A stretch of DNA of 64,000 nt from Photobacterium iliopiscarium (lineage in GTDB: Bacteria > Pseudomonadota > Gammaproteobacteria > Enterobacterales > Vibrionaceae), in contig NZ_PYOO01000011.1 of the NCBI RefSeq assembly GCF_003026395.1, forward strand, positions 1 to 64,000, in the 5' to 3' direction. Positions 23,678 through 32,267 of this stretch are shown here, piece by piece; position 1 is the stretch's first letter; every line of letters begins with the position of its first letter. The position numbers were made by a program, and so were the translations under genes. A model generated the notes under the pieces. The model made no database searches. It worked only from the letters and a program-made list of their open reading frames with translations, and was not told the DNA's origin.

Positions 23678-24161
23678 TCAATTACCATATGTTACGCATA
23701 TGCCAAGCCTAAATTGATCTTAATCAACCGTTGGTGAATTAACATCAATGCTAAAAAAAACTGTCACAATGCATAATATTCCATGCGTATTCAGGTTATT
23801 ATTGAGCAATAACCGTCGCGTAAGCCCTTCTATTGATCTTGTATCATCATTATTCGCATAGCCACCCATTTTTTTTACACTAATATCCTTCATTGAAAAA
23901 TAATGCTCTCATGCTTTAATCTTAATGCGAAAAAATTGTGAACAATCGTTGAGTTAGTAACTATATTCCGCTTTAGAATCAGCGTATCCCAAGGCAAAAT
24001 GAGACAGTTTATTAGCGACTTACCGCTGACATACTCAGCAATACCCGTTTTGATCATTTACGTTTATTGTTTGTTCCCTTATTTATCCATAAGTGCTTTT
24101 ATCACTCATGCAGACAAACACACCTTATGGTTATCATTAACCAATGGTGCAGGAGATAACC
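23678..24161. other. rraB-yfcC intergenic region
   Basis: About 480 bp between divergent genes. It includes a 61-codon open frame (23999-24184) with an AAGG ribosome site that overlaps the yfcC-type start; I list it only as a finding. No clear promoter or operator could be assigned. Confidence 0.45.
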
Positions 24162-25610
24162 ATGACGACACACACAGAAATTAAACCAGAAAAGAAAAGC
24201 TTTTTTTCTCAATTAAAATTCCCATCGGCTTACACCATTTTATTTACGCTTATTGCTTTAGTTGCTGCGCTAACATGGGTTGTACCTGCTGGACAATATG
24301 ATCGTGAAATGAATGCAGAACTCGGTAAAGAAGTTCCAATTACAGGCACTTATAAACCCGTAGAGAGCAATCCCCAAGGTGTTGTTGATGTATTACTGGC
24401 ACCAATAGATGGTTTTTATAACCATGAATCTTATGAAGCCGCAGCCATTGATGTGTCATTGTTCATTTTAATTATTGGTGGTTTTTTAGGGTTGGTCACT
24501 AAAACAGGGGCCATTGATGCGGGTATTGAGCGTGTTACCGCTCGCCTGCATGGTAAAGAAGAATTAATGATCCCGATTCTGATGGGTCTGTTTGCCGCTG
24601 GCGGTACCATTTATGGCATGGCAGAAGAATCGTTACCTTTCTATACGCTATTAGTGCCGGTGATGATGGCGGCGCGCTTTGACCCCCTAGTTGCCGCAGC
24701 GACAGTATTACTTGGCGCAGGTATAGGAACACTAGGATCAACAATAAATCCTTTTGCTACCGTGATTGCATCTAATGCTGCTGGAATCCCCTTTACCGAT
24801 GGCATTATATTACGCGTTATTATTCTAGCGGTGGGTTGGTTAATCTGTGTCGGTTATGTCATGCGCTATGCCAAAATGGTACGCGAAGATAAAACCAAAT
24901 CGATTGTCTATGACCAATATGAACAAAATAAAGCCCATTTTTTAAGTAATCAATCTGACCAAATGCTTGAGTTCACCACCACCCGTAAAGTTATTCTGGC
25001 TATTTTTGGACTCTCTTTTGCGGTAATGATTTATGGTGTTGCTGTTGCTGGTTGGTGGATGCCACAAATATCAGCCATGTTCCTTGGCGCCTCTATTCTT
25101 ATTGGTTTCGTGTCACGAATGAGTGAGGAAGATTTTTCAACCAGCTTTATTGATGGCGCGCGTGACTTGCTTGGGGTCGCGTTAATTATCGGTATTGCGC
25201 GTGGTATTGTGGTGATCATGGATCGCGGTATGATCACCGATACCATCCTAAACTCAGCCGAACACATCGTGACCGGACTCTCGGCGGTGGTGTTTATTAA
25301 TGTGATGTATATATTAGAAATATTACTGTCATTTTTGGTTCCTTCAACCTCCGGACTCGCGGTACTGACAATGCCGATCATGGCACCTCTGGCTGATTTT
25401 TCAGGAGTAGGACGGGAGCTGGTTGTCACTGCTTACCAATCAGCTTCTGGTGTAGTAAATCTAGTCACACCAACATCAGCAGTAGTAATGGGTGGGCTTG
25501 CAATTGCACGCGTCCCTTATGTTCGATGGTTAAAGTGGGTCGCACCATTATTAGGTATTATTATTGTGTTTACGATGGTGGTATTAAGTATTGGTGTAAT
25601 CTTAGTGTAG
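24162..25610 (+). CDS. YfcC family transporter, probable basic amino acid or dicarboxylate carrier
   Basis: A 482-residue inner-membrane protein with about 12 segments. WVVPAGQYDRE near the start, GTIYGMAEESLPFYTLLVPVM, GAGIGTLGSTINPFATVIASNAAG and FLVPSTSGLAVLTMPIMAPLAD are typical of the YfcC/ArcD-like group of the ion-transporter superfamily. The ATG at 24162 has a perfect AGGAG. It lies 700 bp upstream of arcA, and no classical arcD is present, so an arginine/ornithine exchange role is plausible but inferred from context only. It ends at its own terminator, so it is not simply the first gene of the arc operon. Confidence 0.8.
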   Translation: MTTHTEIKPEKKSFFSQLKFPSAYTILFTLIALVAALTWVVPAGQYDREMNAELGKEVPITGTYKPVESNPQGVVDVLLAPIDGFYNHESYEAAAIDVSLFILIIGGFLGLVTKTGAIDAGIERVTARLHGKEELMIPILMGLFAAGGTIYGMAEESLPFYTLLVPVMMAARFDPLVAAATVLLGAGIGTLGSTINPFATVIASNAAGIPFTDGIILRVIILAVGWLICVGYVMRYAKMVREDKTKSIVYDQYEQNKAHFLSNQSDQMLEFTTTRKVILAIFGLSFAVMIYGVAVAGWWMPQISAMFLGASILIGFVSRMSEEDFSTSFIDGARDLLGVALIIGIARGIVVIMDRGMITDTILNSAEHIVTGLSAVVFINVMYILEILLSFLVPSTSGLAVLTMPIMAPLADFSGVGRELVVTAYQSASGVVNLVTPTSAVVMGGLAIARVPYVRWLKWVAPLLGIIIVFTMVVLSIGVILV

Positions 25611-25970: not shown

Positions 25971-26309
25971 GCGGCATTCAAACTTATTTAAAACCATAAA
26001 ATGCATAATATTTCACGACAGCACAAAATACCATTAAAAAACAACAAGATAAAACAACAACAAGTCTTAAAAAAACATCAAAACCACATAATAAACCAGG
26101 CTGAATTTTTGCTTTTTCTTTGATTTTCGTTGTAAATAACCATCATAACATCGCTAAGTCATTAATAATTAAAGTGTGATAACGATCTTATACAAATAAA
26201 GCCAACCACGTAGAATCAATTACAGAAACAACATCTACTACTTATTTAACGCTTCGTAACTTTAAACATAGCCAATCATTAACAGGCATAAAAATAGAGG
26301 GATACTATT

Positions 26310-27530
26310 ATGGGTAACTTTTATGTAGGTTCTGAAATAGGTCAACTACGCCGCGTACTTATTCATCGTCCAGAGCGTGCTTTAAATAACCTTACACCAT
26401 CAAATTGCCAAGATTTATTATTTGATGATGTGTTATCCGTTGAAAAAGCGGGTGAAGAACATGATGTGTTTGCTAATACTTTACGCCATCAAGGTGTTGA
26501 AGTTTTATTATTACAAACCATGTTAAGTGCAACATTAGCGGTTCCAGAAGCAAAAGATTGGTTATTAACAACTCAAATATCAAATTACCGTTTTGGGGAT
26601 ACCTTTGCGAATGATATTCGCTGTTTCTTAGCTGACCTTCCTCATGCTGAACTCGCTTCTATTTTATTAGGTGGTTTAAGTTACGCCGAATTACCACTGC
26701 AATCTTCCTCTATTATGCAAAAAATGCATTCGCCTTGTGATTTTATTATCAAGCCATTACCGAATCATCTCTTCACCCGTGATACCTCATGCTGGGTGTA
26801 TGGCGGTGTTTCTATTAACCCTATGGCAAAAGAAGCACGTCAACGTGAAACTAATCATTTACGAGCAATTTATCGTTGGCATCCAACATTTGCAGGCCAA
26901 GACTTCATTAAATACTTTGGCGATGAGCAAAATGCTTATGACAAATCGACCATCGAAGGCGGTGATGTTTTAGTGCTAGGTAAAGGCAGCGTGTTAATCG
27001 GTATGTCAGAACGTACCACACCACAAGGGGTTGAAGCGTTAGCCGCCAGCCTATTTAAACACGGTCAAGCCAAGCAAGTGATTGCGATGGAATTACCAAA
27101 ACACCGTTCATGCATGCACCTTGATACCGTAATGACACATATGCGTGAAGATACTTTCTCTGTTTACCCAGAAGTAATTCGTAAAGACGTTCAATGCTGG
27201 AGCTTAACGGGTGATGCTTATGGCAACGTTAAAGCTAAAGAAGAAAATTATTTTGTTCACACAATAGAAAAAGCCTTAGGTGTTGATCAACTTAATCTAA
27301 TTACCACTGGCGGCGATGGCTTTGAAGCTGAACGTGAGCAATGGAACGATGCCAACAATGTGTTAACCGTCAGCCCTGGCGTGGTTATTGGTTATGAGCG
27401 TAACACTTACACCAATGAAAAATATGATAAAGCAGGCATCACTGTTTTACCGATTCCTGGTGATGAATTGGGGCGTGGCCGTGGTGGTGCTCGCTGCATG
27501 AGCTGTCCAATTGAGCGTGATGGTATTTAA
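26310..27530 (+). CDS. arcA: Arginine deiminase ArcA
   Basis: Hydrolyses arginine to citrulline and ammonia, the first step of the arginine deiminase route to ATP and acid resistance. The 406 residues show the guanidine-modifying fold: [14 protein letters not shown] at the start, [13 protein letters not shown], the conserved [10 protein letters not shown], catalytic His in MHLDTVMT, and the nucleophile Cys396 in [16 protein letters not shown] ribosome site precedes the ATG. It is followed by arcC after 62 nt and argF beyond, as one likely operon. Confidence 0.96.
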
Positions 27531-27592: not shown

Positions 27593-28507
27593 ATGACTAA
27601 ACAAACCGTTGTAGTTGCCCTTGGTGGTAACGCCTTATTACGTCGCGGCGAGCCTTTAGAAGCCAGTATTCAACGCCAAAACATTGCCACCGCAGCCAAA
27701 ACCATCGCTGACATTGCGCTGCAATATAATGTCGTGCTCGTTCATGGTAACGGCCCACAAGTAGGATTACTGGCACTGCAAGGGTTGGAATATAAAAAAG
27801 TGATGCCGTACCCATTAGATGTTTTGGGATCAGAAACACAAGGCATGATCGGTTACATCTTAATGCAAGAACTGAAGAATTTACTGCCAGAACTAGATGT
27901 CTCTTGCATGCTGACTCAAATGCTCGTTGATCCACAAGACCCAGCCTTTGCGGATCCAACCAAGCCTATTGGCCCGGTGTATCAAGAAGCTGAAGCACGT
28001 GAATTAGCAGAGAAATTTCAATGGACAGTGAAAGCTGACGGTCAATATTTCCGTCGCGTAGTGCCAAGCCCACAACCTATCGGCATCGTTGAATGTGATG
28101 CTATCGAAACCCTGATCAAACGCAATCATTTGGTTATTTGTACTGGCGGTGGTGGCATTCCGGTTAAACGTGAAAACAACAAACTTATCGGTGTCGAAGC
28201 TGTGATTGATAAAGACATGTCAGCCGCTTATCTCGCCAAACAATTAAACGCCGATGCACTGCTTATTTTGACGGATGCCGATGCGGTTTATCTTGATTGG
28301 GGCCAAGCAACCCAAAAAGCCATTACTAGCACCACCCCACGCGCATTATCGCATTACAGTTTTGATGCGGGCTCCATGGGACCCAAGATTGAAGCATCGT
28401 GTGAATTTATCAAACAAGGTGGGAAATTCGTCGGTATCGGTGCGCTACATGACGGATTAAAGATTCTAAAAGGTCAAGCTGGTACAAATATTATTGCAGA
28501 TAAATAG
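27593..28507 (+). CDS. arcC: Carbamate kinase ArcC
   Basis: Transfers phosphate from carbamoyl phosphate to ADP, the ATP-yielding last step of arginine fermentation. The 304-residue amino acid kinase fold shows VALGGNALLRRG, VLVHGNGPQVG, ICTGGGGIPV, the Lys/Asp motif DKDMSAAYLAKQL and GSMGPKIEA. A GGAGAGA ribosome site precedes the start. It lies between arcA and argF, the same direction. A probable ARG box overlaps its stop codon, so argF may also have its own promoter. Confidence 0.96.
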   Translation: MTKQTVVVALGGNALLRRGEPLEASIQRQNIATAAKTIADIALQYNVVLVHGNGPQVGLLALQGLEYKKVMPYPLDVLGSETQGMIGYILMQELKNLLPELDVSCMLTQMLVDPQDPAFADPTKPIGPVYQEAEARELAEKFQWTVKADGQYFRRVVPSPQPIGIVECDAIETLIKRNHLVICTGGGGIPVKRENNKLIGVEAVIDKDMSAAYLAKQLNADALLILTDADAVYLDWGQATQKAITSTTPRALSHYSFDAGSMGPKIEASCEFIKQGGKFVGIGALHDGLKILKGQAGTNIIADK

Positions 28508-28519
28508 AATAACTATTCA
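28506..28519 (+). promoter_or_regulatory. Probable ARG box before argF
   Basis: AGAAT-AACT-ATTCA has correct 4-bp spacing and nine of ten half-site bases of the ArgR consensus TGAAT-W4-ATTCA. It overlaps the arcC stop and lies 115 bp before argF. It would allow arginine-dependent control of argF separately from arcAC. The second box normally found 21 bp away was not recognised. Confidence 0.5.
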
Positions 28520-28633
28520 CAAACAGCAAAAAATAAGATACACATAATATTAACATTAAGCAGTATCGAGTAACTCAACCATAACATAACAAGATTCAGT
28601 CGAAGTGATACTGAACCTTAAGAGGGATACATC

Positions 28634-29644
28634 ATGGCTTTTAATCTTCGTAATCGTAACTTCCTAAAATTAATTGATTTCACTCCTCGTGAGATTCAAC
28701 ATTTACTTGAACTGTCGGCTGAATTAAAAAAAGCAAAATATAATGGCTATGAGCAACCACGCCTTAAAGGTAAAAATATTGCACTGATCTTTGAAAAGAC
28801 CTCAACCCGTACGCGTTGTGCATTTGAAGTTGCCGCTTTTGACCAAGGAGCTCAAGTTTCTTACTTAGGCCCTTCTGGCTCTCAAATTGGCCATAAAGAA
28901 TCAATGAAAGACACCGCTCGCGTATTAGGTCGTATGTACGATGGCATTGAATACCGTGGTTTTGGGCAAGCTATTGTTGAAGAACTTGGCGCATATGCAG
29001 GGGTTCCTGTATGGAATGGTCTAACAGATGAATTCCACCCAACGCAAATTTTAGCTGACTTTCTAACCATGCAAGAGCACGGTCGCGGTAAAGCATTACA
29101 TCAAATATCATTTGCTTACCTAGGTGACGCACGTAATAACATGGGTAATTCATTGATGGTTGGTGCTGCAAAAATGGGAATGGATATTCGCCTTGTCGCA
29201 CCAAAAGCTTTCTGGCCTGATGCTGAACTTGTCGCTCAATGCCGTGAAATTGCCGCTGAAACTGGGGCTAAAATCACCATGACAGATGATGTTCAAGAAG
29301 GTGTTCAAGGCTGTGATTTCCTTTATACCGATGTGTGGGTTTCTATGGGTGAAGCCAAAGAAGCATGGGCTGAGCGAATCAATTTAATGTTGCCATACCA
29401 AGTTAACATGGCAATGTTAAAAGCAACGGGGAATCCGCATGTGAAATTTATGCACTGCTTACCCGCTTTCCATGGCGAAGATACCACGATAGGAAAAGAG
29501 CTTGCTCAAGCTTACCCAATGTTATCAAAAGGGGTCGAAGTAACAGACGAAGTGATTGAATCAGATCATTCAATTGTGTTTGATGAGGCGGAAAACCGCA
29601 TGCACACCATCAAAGCCGTAATGGTCGCTACATTAGGTAATTAA
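28634..29644 (+). CDS. argF: Ornithine carbamoyltransferase
   Basis: Interconverts ornithine plus carbamoyl phosphate and citrulline plus phosphate. The 336 residues carry the carbamoyl-phosphate motif STRTR (57-61), HPTQILAD, and [10 protein letters not shown] (catalytic Cys275). GAGGG precedes the ATG. Its place beside pyrB and rraB is that of the biosynthetic argF/argI in relatives, but here it also directly follows arcA and arcC, where a catabolic arcB would sit. One enzyme may do both jobs; direction cannot be told from sequence. A terminator follows. Confidence 0.95.
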
Positions 29645-29699: not shown

Positions 29700-29836
29700 T
29701 TGCATATTTTTTCAAGGGCTACATTCAACTTAAACGAAAAGACTTTATTTTTCATGGTAATAAAAACAACAATAAACCAAAAACACATAAATGAAATTGC
29801 ATAAAAATCCGCAGATTGAATAGTTAACGCAAACGC

Positions 29837-29894: not shown

Positions 29895-29996
29895 ATGAAC
29901 CTTACAATTAACACGACATTGATTCGCTGTAATTATCCGTTGGTGATGGTTTGTTATTTTATTTTTATTATTTTTCAAAAAAAAGCCTCCTTTTAA
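29895..29996 (+). CDS. pyrL: pyrBI operon leader peptide (PyrL-type)
   Basis: A 33-codon frame starting 8 nt after AAGAGA, whose end runs into the attenuator hairpin: the stop codon sits in the terminator loop. Codons 21-27 are almost all U (Tyr, Phe, Ile), so polymerase should pause there when UTP is low and let the ribosome catch up and block the terminator. That is the pyrBI attenuation logic of E. coli, but the peptide (MNLTINTTLIRCNYPLVMVC...) is unlike the 44-residue E. coli PyrL that I remember. Position, U-rich pause stretch and hairpin support it together. Confidence 0.85.
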   Translation: MNLTINTTLIRCNYPLVMVCYFIFIIFQKKASF

Positions 29997-30012
29997 TAGG
30001 GGGCTTTTTTTT
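29981..30012 (+). terminator. UTP-sensing attenuator of pyrBI
   Basis: Ten-pair stem AAAAGCCTCC / GGGGGCTTTT (one G-T pair), loop TTTTAATA, then a long T run, 65 nt before the pyrB start. The pyrL stop lies in its loop, so a ribosome finishing pyrL would prevent the hairpin. Confidence 0.88.
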
Positions 30013-30076
30013 GCCTAAAATTTAGTAAACAACAACCGTTTTTTAATTTAACTAAACCATCAGAGGGAAAGAAGCC

Positions 30077-31006
30077 ATGGCTAATTCGCTGTTTAAAAAG
30101 CATATTATTTCTATACCAGAGCTTAACCGTGCTGAACTAGAGCTTATTATTGAGACCGCTGCGAGATTAAAAGCCGAGCCGAATCCGACCTTACTTAAAA
30201 ATAAAGTCGTCGCCAGTTGCTTCTTTGAACCATCAACCCGTACACGCCTTTCATTTGAAACCGCTATCCAGCGCTTAGGTGGTACTGTGGTGGGATTTGA
30301 TTCGCCAGGAAATACATCGTTAGCCAATAAAGGCGAAACATTATCAGATTCAGTGCAAGTCATTACCTCTTATGTTGATGCATTTGTTATGCGTCATCCC
30401 CAAGAAGGTGCGGCTCGTTTAGCATCTGAATTTTCCAATGGGGTACCGGTTATCAATGGGGGTGATGGCGCCAATCAGCATCCAACCCAAACACTGTTAG
30501 ATCTGTTCACTATCCATGAAACCCAAGGTCGACTTGATGGTATTAATATCGCCTTCGTGGGCGATTTAAAATATGGTCGTACAGTACATTCATTAACCCA
30601 AGCATTATCAAAATTTAATGATGTTAAATTCTTCTTTATTGCCCCTGAAGTACTGGCAATGCCGGATTATATTTGTGAAGAGTTGGATGATGCGGGTATC
30701 AGTTACAGCTTGCACAACAATATGGAAGATGTCATTCCAGAGTTAGATATTCTTTACATGACACGGGTTCAAAAAGAGCGTTTTGATGAGTCTGAATATG
30801 TACATATGAAAGCCGCTTATATTCTAACGGCCAACATGCTAGAAAGTGCTCGTGACAATCTGAAAGTCTTACATCCACTACCACGCGTAGATGAAATCAC
30901 TGTCGATGTCGATAAGACCAAATATGCTTACTTCTTCCAACAAGCAGAAAATGGTGTTTATGCGCGTCAAGCGTTACTGGCTCTTGTACTTAATGAAACT
31001 CTATAA
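30077..31006 (+). CDS. pyrB: Aspartate carbamoyltransferase catalytic subunit
   Basis: Makes carbamoyl-aspartate, the committed step of pyrimidine synthesis. The 309 residues (E. coli 311) show the carbamoyl-phosphate loop [10 protein letters not shown] (STRTR at 53-57), [15 protein letters not shown] and HPLPRVDEI. It is controlled by the attenuator just upstream and followed after about 15 nt by the regulatory subunit pyrI. Confidence 0.97.
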
Positions 31007-31021
31007 AAAGGTGTGATGATC

Positions 31022-31489
31022 ATGGTTAAGGAAACCCAACTAAAAGTTGAAGCAATTAAAAACGGCACTGTTATCGATCATATCCCAGCCAATATTGGCA
31101 TTAAGGTCCTTAAATTATTTAATATCGATGGTACAAATGAGCGCGTTACTATCGGGCTTAATTTGCCGTCTTCTGCACTAGGTGCAAAAGATCTCATCAA
31201 AATAGAGAATGTGTTTCTCACCGAAGATCAAGCCAATCAATTGGCGCTCTATGCACCAAAAGCAACGGTTAATCAAATTGAAAACTACGAAGTGGTTAAA
31301 AAGCTCAATTTGTCACTACCTGAATTTATCAGTGCCATTTTTAAATGTCCAAATAGCAACTGTATTTCACATGGTGAACCCGTTAACAGTGGCTTTAAAG
31401 TACTGACTAAAAAATCAGATATTCAGCTAAAATGTAAATACTGCGAAAAAGTATTTTCACGTCAAATCGTCACTGAATGTAATAGCTAA
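31022..31489 (+). CDS. pyrI: Aspartate carbamoyltransferase regulatory subunit
   Basis: Binds CTP and ATP and holds two catalytic trimers together. The ATG at 31022 is chosen because the zinc cysteines then fall at 109, 114, 138 and 141, exactly the E. coli numbers as I recall them; GTG 31013 and ATG 31016 are in-frame alternatives and closer to the AAGG site. Length is 155 residues (E. coli 153). The allosteric domain opens [20 protein letters not shown]. Forms an operon with pyrB. Confidence 0.95.
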
Positions 31490-31535: not shown

Positions 31536-31781
31536 TCTCTTTCGTTAGACCCTGTCATCTTTTATTAATTAACAGTATTCAATAACGTTAATCTGTATCA
31601 CATTACTATCATTCACTAGCATTACTTCATCTTACGTTTGTTATTTGGTGATAATGGTCATATTCCCGCTATATTATAATTGTTAACATCAATATGCACC
31701 AATGCGCAACAATACAGCGACAAAAATAATCTCTCTTATCCTACCCATTATTGATCCATACATTGCCAAGGAATGACGTCA

Positions 31782-32267
31782 ATGACCATCCAACCCCCAG
31801 CAATCGATCATAATTATTGTAATGATAATATGACATCAGCATGTAAACGCTTATTACAGCAACAAAGTTTTACAACGCAAGATGATATTCGGTTTCAATT
31901 AATTGAACTAGGCTTTCACGATATCAGTCAATCAACGGTATCACGACTATTATTACGCTTAGGCGTCGCGAAAGTACCTAACGCTGCGGGTAAAAAAATT
32001 TATTGCCTTACCGCTGAAAATGAACCAATTAAAATTAATGCATCCATTGCATCACAAATTGAATTTGTCAGTCATAACCAACTTGTTGTGGTCATTAAAA
32101 CCCACCCAGGTAGCGCACAGTTAGTGGCACGATTAATTGATATGCAGCCTCATGTGGATATTTTAGGCACTATAGGCGGCAATGATACGGTAATGGTTGC
32201 GCCAAAAGACATAACTCGAATCAACCAATGCCTACAAGTAGTAAAACATTGTTTAGGGTTAAAATAG
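31782..32267 (+). CDS. ArgR family transcriptional regulator with an altered ligand residue
   Basis: A 161-residue ArgR-type hexameric regulator. The N-terminal winged helix (about 17-77) keeps the DNA-reading SQSTVSR segment, so ARG-box binding is likely. The C-terminal core keeps THPGSAQLVARLID, with the equivalents of E. coli Gln106 and Asp113. In the GTIxGxDT loop, Asn134 replaces E. coli Asp128, which contacts the arginine guanidino group, while Asp135 (E. coli Asp129) stays. The ATG at 31782 is preferred because AAGG lies too close to the ATG at 31773. Its place by arcA, arcC and argF suggests a cluster-specific regulator, with the main ArgR probably elsewhere. Confidence 0.88.
   Translation: MTIQPPAIDHNYCNDNMTSACKRLLQQQSFTTQDDIRFQLIELGFHDISQSTVSRLLLRLGVAKVPNAAGKKIYCLTAENEPIKINASIASQIEFVSHNQLVVVIKTHPGSAQLVARLIDMQPHVDILGTIGGNDTVMVAPKDITRINQCLQVVKHCLGLK

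Follow-up and report, generated by a model that had tools for sequence, protein, structure and literature searches.

In Vibrio fluvialis, an argR gene adjacent to the arc genes of the arginine deiminase (ADI) pathway activates arcD and arcACB, its product binding directly to both promoters in a buffer without listed arginine, and 25 mM arginine raises arc transcription (PMC11172107, in the parts covered). The argR deleted in that study is understood to be the arc-adjacent copy, since the paper speaks of the adjacent gene; the covered parts mention neither ligand tests nor the asparagine discussed below. For E. coli ArgR, simulations indicate that Asp128 contacts the guanidino group when arginine is bound and pairs with the Arg110 side chain when the protein is empty, the resulting Arg110-Asp128 bridge driving the rotation of the empty state; the positions Gln106, Asp113 and Asp129 hold the amino-acid end of arginine, and an Arg at position 99 forms a pair with Asp113, which leaves the trimers free to rotate in either direction (PMC2880562, in the parts covered). 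Judged from its published description, Salmonella RosE (STM4463) is, like the protein treated here, an ArgR paralogue of an ADI islet, but it was studied as a repressor of std fimbriae (PMC2328253, in the parts covered). Lactococcus lactis likewise has two ArgR-type proteins, of which the ADI-linked ArgR binds DNA and AhrC binds arginine, the ADI-linked one therefore not being the arginine sensor (PMC6586332, in the parts covered); this Firmicutes pair works by a partner mechanism, which for the pair described below would be hypothetical.

The subject of this report is an ArgR paralogue encoded within an ADI locus of Photobacterium iliopiscarium, in a stretch of 64,000 nucleotides (the window), which carries Asn where E. 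coli ArgR has Asp128. The same residue change has been made in the laboratory in E. coli ArgR, and the engineered D128N protein of Niersbach et al. (1998) reportedly favours citrulline. A literature search found no text on D128N or on a citrulline-reading ArgR, and a limited search found no report of an Asn128 ArgR clade. The natural paralogue is a dedicated regulator of the ADI locus whose guanidinium-reading residue has been changed and kept changed. Sensing of citrulline would be the best single reading of that change, and we hold it tentatively, short of even confidence.

Organization of the arc-pyrBI locus

The gene order in the window is arcD, arcA, arcC, OTC, pyrB, pyrI, argR paralogue and ridA (32379), and the features up to the paralogue are all on the plus strand. 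The first frame (24144..25610), which we take to be arcD, would encode an arginine/ornithine antiporter, its E. coli counterpart being annotated as a 'YfcC family protein'. It is followed by arcA (26310..27530), for arginine deiminase, the product of which is citrulline. The frames for carbamate kinase (arcC, 27593..28507), ornithine carbamoyltransferase (arcB/OTC, 28634..29644) and aspartate carbamoyltransferase (pyrB, 30077..31006) were matched to an annotated E. coli islet, and the frame lying 3' of pyrB (31013..31489) is presumably pyrI, the regulatory chain. The argR paralogue (31782..32267; 161 aa) is defined by its open reading frame, translation, Pfam domains and predicted model; an in-frame ATG at 31773 is an alternative to the likely start at 31782. 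It is an orthologue in an arc-pyrBI locus of the V. fluvialis type, corresponding to the gene at the same locus that activates arcD and arcACB in that species. One genome (G151) contains five of the six promoter strings given in the covered parts of PMC11172107, and its arc-linked ArgR has the turn GTVGGNDT.

The arc-linked paralogue and its canonical counterpart

Both Pfam domains expected of the ArgR/AhrC superfamily score above cut-off in the window protein (PF01316, the Arg_repressor DNA-binding domain, 47.5 versus 27 bits; PF02863, the Arg_repressor C-terminal domain, 58.7 versus 25 bits), and by these two domains it is assigned to that superfamily. Of the five NCBIfam ArgR equivalog models listed, all score the paralogue under their cut-offs (NF003457, 130.1 versus 194 bits; TIGR01529, 107.8 versus 130.45; the three others also below), and the biosynthetic-type GDD turn with its guanidino-reading Asp128 is absent from it. 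Its nearest named relative among the best 80 of 181 relatives is a protein of P. piscicola, with 98% identity.

For comparison, an E. coli ArgR reference was used that had been matched across both domains to PDB entries 1aoy and 1xxa. In the resulting alignment the ligand turn of the paralogue reads GTIGGNDT, with Asn134 (codon AAT, 32181..32183, plus strand) on Asp128, and the equivalents of Gln106, Arg110, Asp113, Thr124, Asp129 and Thr130 are all retained. A first-pass annotation of this DNA had already placed Asn134 at the Asp128 position and had described the Gln106, Asp113 and second Asp (Asp129) equivalents as intact, and translation and alignment bear it out in these respects. Its further statement, that the DNA-reading segment SQSTVSR is kept, holds among the paralogues but not against canonical ArgR, which has QSKVSR there: the canonical proteins carry Lys in column 45, where 99% of the Asn paralogues carry Thr, so that the segment is not quite canonical. 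Overall, the paralogue shares with E. coli ArgR and mdh-linked ArgR the winged helix-turn-helix and ligand/hexamer domains as well as Gln106, Arg110, Asp113 and Asp129, and differs in Asn128, in Thr45 for Lys45 in the recognition helix and in having one residue fewer at 120. The predicted single-chain model (mean pLDDT 82.7, pTM 0.48, blocks 121-150 about 94-96) has the order of helices and strands expected for a two-domain ArgR, and puts Asn134 in the turn that connects strand 127-132 with strand 136-141, both predicted with confidence.

The same genome also encodes a canonical ArgR, 34% identical to the window paralogue over 125 residues, beside a frame that we take to be mdh (malate dehydrogenase). 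Its turn is GVVAGDDT, with Asp at 128. That Asn might also be found in the main ArgR of the species, a possibility named with the first-pass annotation as refuting its citrulline proposal, is thereby rejected, as the own canonical protein and all 33 of the 33 canonical ArgRs read have Asp at this position. Besides the own genome, four genomes from two other families carry a canonical copy together with the paralogue, and this coexistence is one of two observations that would favour a partnership, in which the paralogue, itself not sensing arginine, works with the arginine-sensing canonical ArgR through mixed hexamers or shared boxes; the other is the division of labour in L. lactis, where the ADI-linked ArgR binds DNA and AhrC arginine (PMC6586332, in the parts covered). 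By analogy with that pair the arrangement is conceivable in the window, but mixed hexamers are hypothetical here, the two own ArgRs are only 34% identical, and a partnership would not need Asp113 and Asp129 to be invariant, so that we consider it quite improbable.

Residue 128 across relatives

The window protein was searched in 329 family genomes, and 115 paralogue frames were read at first, with the window's own counted twice; these comprised the 30 best, 60 selected among the rows listed, 24 from genomes with weak scores and one further locus (L002), and two more were read later. An order-level search matched 32 of 247 genomes, including own-family genomes and some canonical copies, and supplied paralogues from two further families. 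After removal of duplicates, and with two broken frames (L137, L146) and L098 left out, 123 distinct intact paralogues from three families remained, in which residue 128 is Asn in 113, Asp in nine and Ile in one. Among the best 80 of 181 relatives in named genomes, a set that overlaps the 123, 79 of 80 paralogues have Asn and one has Ile. The Asn is written as AAT in 54 and AAC in 59 of the 113 copies, and the use of both codons argues that Asn128 is itself conserved. The idea that the Asn is a private or drifting change was rejected, given its presence in 113 of 123 distinct paralogues and its two codons. In two genomes the paralogue frame is broken beside the arc genes, unless this is an assembly error (L137/L159 in G166; L146/L163 in G095).

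Within the Asn copies, Arg110, Asp113 and Asp129 are invariant (113/113 each), Gln106 is present in 102 of 113, and His99 is replaced by Lys in 96 of 113; by analogy with the Arg99 of the simulations, a Lys99-Asp113 latch in the empty paralogue is conceivable. The copies of one family (f25) have Thr106 and Val130, and have thus lost Gln106 and Thr130 (L180-L191 and L201-L207), and those of another (f2) have Met130. The ADI-linked copies of E. coli depart further. The one translated has the turn GSN (Ser128, Asn129), with Arg106 and Ile130, and the copies in four further genomes, presumed to belong to the E. coli family, read GSS, with Arg106 where aligned. E. coli arcA was found in 951 of 5426 genomes, two of which were inspected: in one islet the 'arginine repressor' (L226, 11757-12245), with GSN in place of GDD, adjoins pyrLBI and ridA, and a second locus (L227) holds the same annotated protein. 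This islet repressor is also an ADI-linked ArgR paralogue beside pyrBI and ridA, and differs from the window protein in Ser128, Asn129 and Arg106. Because the E. coli-type, f25 and f2 copies have altered other pocket positions, the rule common to the arc-linked copies read is the loss of Asp128, whereas retention of the remaining amino-acid pocket is peculiar to the Vibrionaceae and, partly, to f2.

The loss of Asp128, Asp129 and Gln106 in the E. coli type fits a loss of ligand sensing as well. Asn128 could serve to break the Arg110-Asp128 bridge of the empty hexamer, the bridge to which the simulations of the E. coli protein attribute the rotation of the empty state (PMC2880562, in the parts covered), and so hold the protein in its DNA-binding state, with control exerted through the paralogue's own expression or other regulators. 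V. fluvialis ArgR and Salmonella RosE each shifted DNA with no arginine mentioned in the covered parts of the reports, and more of the pocket has gone in the E. coli-type copies. E. coli ArgR, however, has a weak affinity for DNA even when empty, and DNA shifts without arginine therefore prove little. Moreover, the strict Asn, encoded by two codons, and the intact Gln106, Asp113 and Asp129 of the Vibrionaceae Asn copies suggest contact with a ligand. Such ligand-independent binding would accordingly seem a distinctly unlikely explanation for the window protein.

Citrulline as the candidate ligand

Returning to citrulline, our preferred proposal is that the paralogue activates the ADI genes and that its pocket accommodates an uncharged ligand resembling arginine, of which citrulline would be the likeliest. 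An ArgR-fold paralogue common to several Enterobacterales families has changed its guanidinium-reading Asp128 to Asn. Arginine is taken up via ArcD and converted to citrulline by ArcA, as is established for these proteins; citrulline would then occupy the hexamer pocket, with its uncharged ureido group against Asn128, while Gln106, Asp113 and Asp129 would hold the amino-acid end, and the change from Asp to Asn would match the change from arginine to citrulline. The liganded hexamer would bind ARG-like boxes upstream of arcD and arcA, with OTC and pyrB as further possible targets, and switch on breakdown. Each cell would thus have two ArgRs for two signals, arginine for synthesis and citrulline for breakdown. 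If this is true, evolution itself made a specificity switch that had reportedly been engineered in E. coli ArgR, and it becomes clear why two arginine regulators can share one cell; even with another ligand, the name 'arginine repressor' conceals a separate class in marine bacteria.

Linkage of the asparagine to the arc genes

Linkage was counted in 93 loci with longer flanks, arc genes being sought within the fetched stretch. The Asn copy is accompanied by arcA, arcC or arcD in 74 of 83 loci (by arcD only in L094), versus none of the ten loci with Asp or Ile copies (nine Asp, one Ile). The check proposed with the first-pass annotation, namely whether Asn tracks with arc-linked and Asp with mdh-linked copies, thus comes out as expected, 33 of 33 canonical ArgRs having Asp. 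Nine Asn loci are without arc genes; two of these (L067, L104) are on short stretches that end early, and in two from family f25 (L202, L207) the Asn copy is with pyrBI and arcC is elsewhere in the genome. In six genomes of the window's genus (G057, G059, G078, G076, G039, G040) there is no match to arcA or arcC, and all six have Asn; OTC and pyrBI adjoin the Asn copy in the four of these with longer stretches. Two Vibrio-type genomes (G206, G170), with Asn, have no arcC match and an arcA-like gene elsewhere. Since these eight arcC-less genomes still have Asn, the residue outlasts the pathway in some lineages, and this counts against a plain citrulline reading.

Duplications were seen as well. 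P. lipolyticum carries two arc clusters, and each is accompanied by a separate Asn copy (L246 and L265, the latter being L091 of G058), and at L091 the arc genes are in the opposite orientation. Two arcA-like frames flank arcD at eight loci (L063, L064, L069, L070, L074, L076, L159 and L166).

Asp-type paralogues and the probable loss of the arc operon

Genes of an F1Fo ATP synthase operon are present in all nine Asp loci, as is a conserved gene whose function is unknown. At L147 and L152, argR(Asp) lies between the atp operon and the conserved gene, with extra genes before the latter at L147, and between these flanks the genomes of the closest Asn copies (G158, G177) have arcDACB and argR(Asn), together with pyrBI in G177. 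Searches by tblastn (E up to 1e-3) found no arc gene in the nine Asp loci, and all nine Asp genomes failed to match carbamate kinase at E up to 1e-30; an arcA-like gene is present elsewhere in five of the nine. Given the shared flanks, the lack of arc genes and the lack of a carbamate kinase match, the most likely course is an in-place deletion of arcDACB that spared the regulator. Within this Vibrio group the F1Fo ATP synthase operon lies beside the arc or former arc site at L147-L155, L158 and L338, and in closed genomes the ATP synthase/argR site and the arcA-like gene are on different contigs.

These Asp copies are not plain canonical ArgRs, a candidate explanation that was rejected on the paralogue state of six other class-separating columns. 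Seven columns separate canonical ArgRs from Asn paralogues, and the Asp copies are canonical-like only at 128, the column by which the groups were defined and whose invariance within groups is thus by construction, and are paralogue-like in the other six. Six Asp copies are 57-61% identical to two Asn copies and 32-36% to two canonical ones. Both a quick tree of 81 rows (support 99) and a careful tree (support 100/99) place the Asp copies beside two Asn copies, the careful tree being built from 43 of 83 rows chosen by hand, without the f25 and E. coli-type copies. On those 43 rows, forcing Asn into a single clade costs only 5.7 log units (AU p 0.095). Another quick tree, of 83 rows with two long branches (L135, L179) left out beforehand, is contradicted by a single-Asn-clade tree that is 21.7 units better, and was not relied on. 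Alignment A1 contains Asn rows only, by choice. With the trees not decisive, the case is made by synteny and the six other columns, from which reversion of Asn to Asp probably accompanied loss of the pathway. The tie of Asp to ADI loss is one event only. The clade is nonetheless a natural experiment, in which the same site has either an arc operon with Asn or no arc operon with Asp, and it shows how a sensor pocket follows its pathway, even if the ligand is another.

Asp following ADI loss is equally in keeping with low-affinity sensing of arginine. Asn128 would contact arginine without a salt bridge, so that high arginine would be needed to occupy the pocket and start breakdown; the Asp128 ArgR would answer at low arginine and the Asn paralogue when arginine is plentiful. 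The rise of V. fluvialis arc transcription at 25 mM arginine is in keeping with this, as is the presence of the other named pocket residues in most Asn copies; yet DNA binding by the V. fluvialis protein took place with no arginine among the buffer's listed components (PMC11172107, in the parts covered), and it would have to be explained why Asn alone, and no other weakening residue, accompanies arc in three families. This account is unlikely, although less so than either of the other two alternatives. Taken together, weak arginine sensing, partnership with the canonical ArgR and ligand independence have the better chance of containing the answer. As to citrulline, the full claim, that a natural ArgR clade of the Vibrionaceae and two other Enterobacterales families senses it, as the initial product of the pathway under its control, by means of the Asp-to-Asn change and that this specificity is lost by reversion upon deletion of the pathway, is possible but on balance doubtful.

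Candidate regulatory sites

The window was scanned for ARG boxes with a Vibrio ARG consensus, and none of its sites, taken singly, outscores the best ones in shuffled sequence. Four ARG-box-like sites, all on the plus strand, precede genes of the locus. The candidate upstream of arcD, AATGCATAATATTCCATG (23768..23785, 376 bp upstream), scores 10.1, a value that shuffled sequence also reaches, and that upstream of arcA, AATGCATAATATTTCACG (26000..26017, 310 bp upstream; 12.4), is a near copy of it. Preceding OTC by 130 bp is ATAGAATAACTATTCACA (28504..28521; 11.8), the 28506 site of the first-pass annotation; the five Photobacterium loci compared all have a similar site at -125 to -130, which is absent from the three Vibrio loci compared. 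The highest score belongs to ATTGCATAAAAATCCGCA (29796..29813; 13.0), 281 bp upstream of pyrB. Upstream of the window paralogue itself there is only a weak site (5.7, at 31683).

Across the named loci, an upstream score of at least 11 occurs before pyrB in 42 of 70 (versus 3.1% of shuffles), the paralogue in 25 of 80 (versus 3.9%), OTC in 15 of 76 (versus 1.3%), arcD in 16 of 46 (versus 7.4%; loci where arcD starts beyond the locus edge were dropped) and arcA in 11 of 68 (versus 8.7%), and before neither arcC (0/25) nor ridA (0/36). Additionally, a candidate leader frame, MNLTINTTLIRCNYPLVMVCYFIFIIFQKKASF (window 29895-29996), precedes pyrB; inspection by eye shows a stem and then a T run after it, near 29976-30013. 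Leader frame, stem and T run together look like a pyrBI attenuator of the E. coli pyrL kind.
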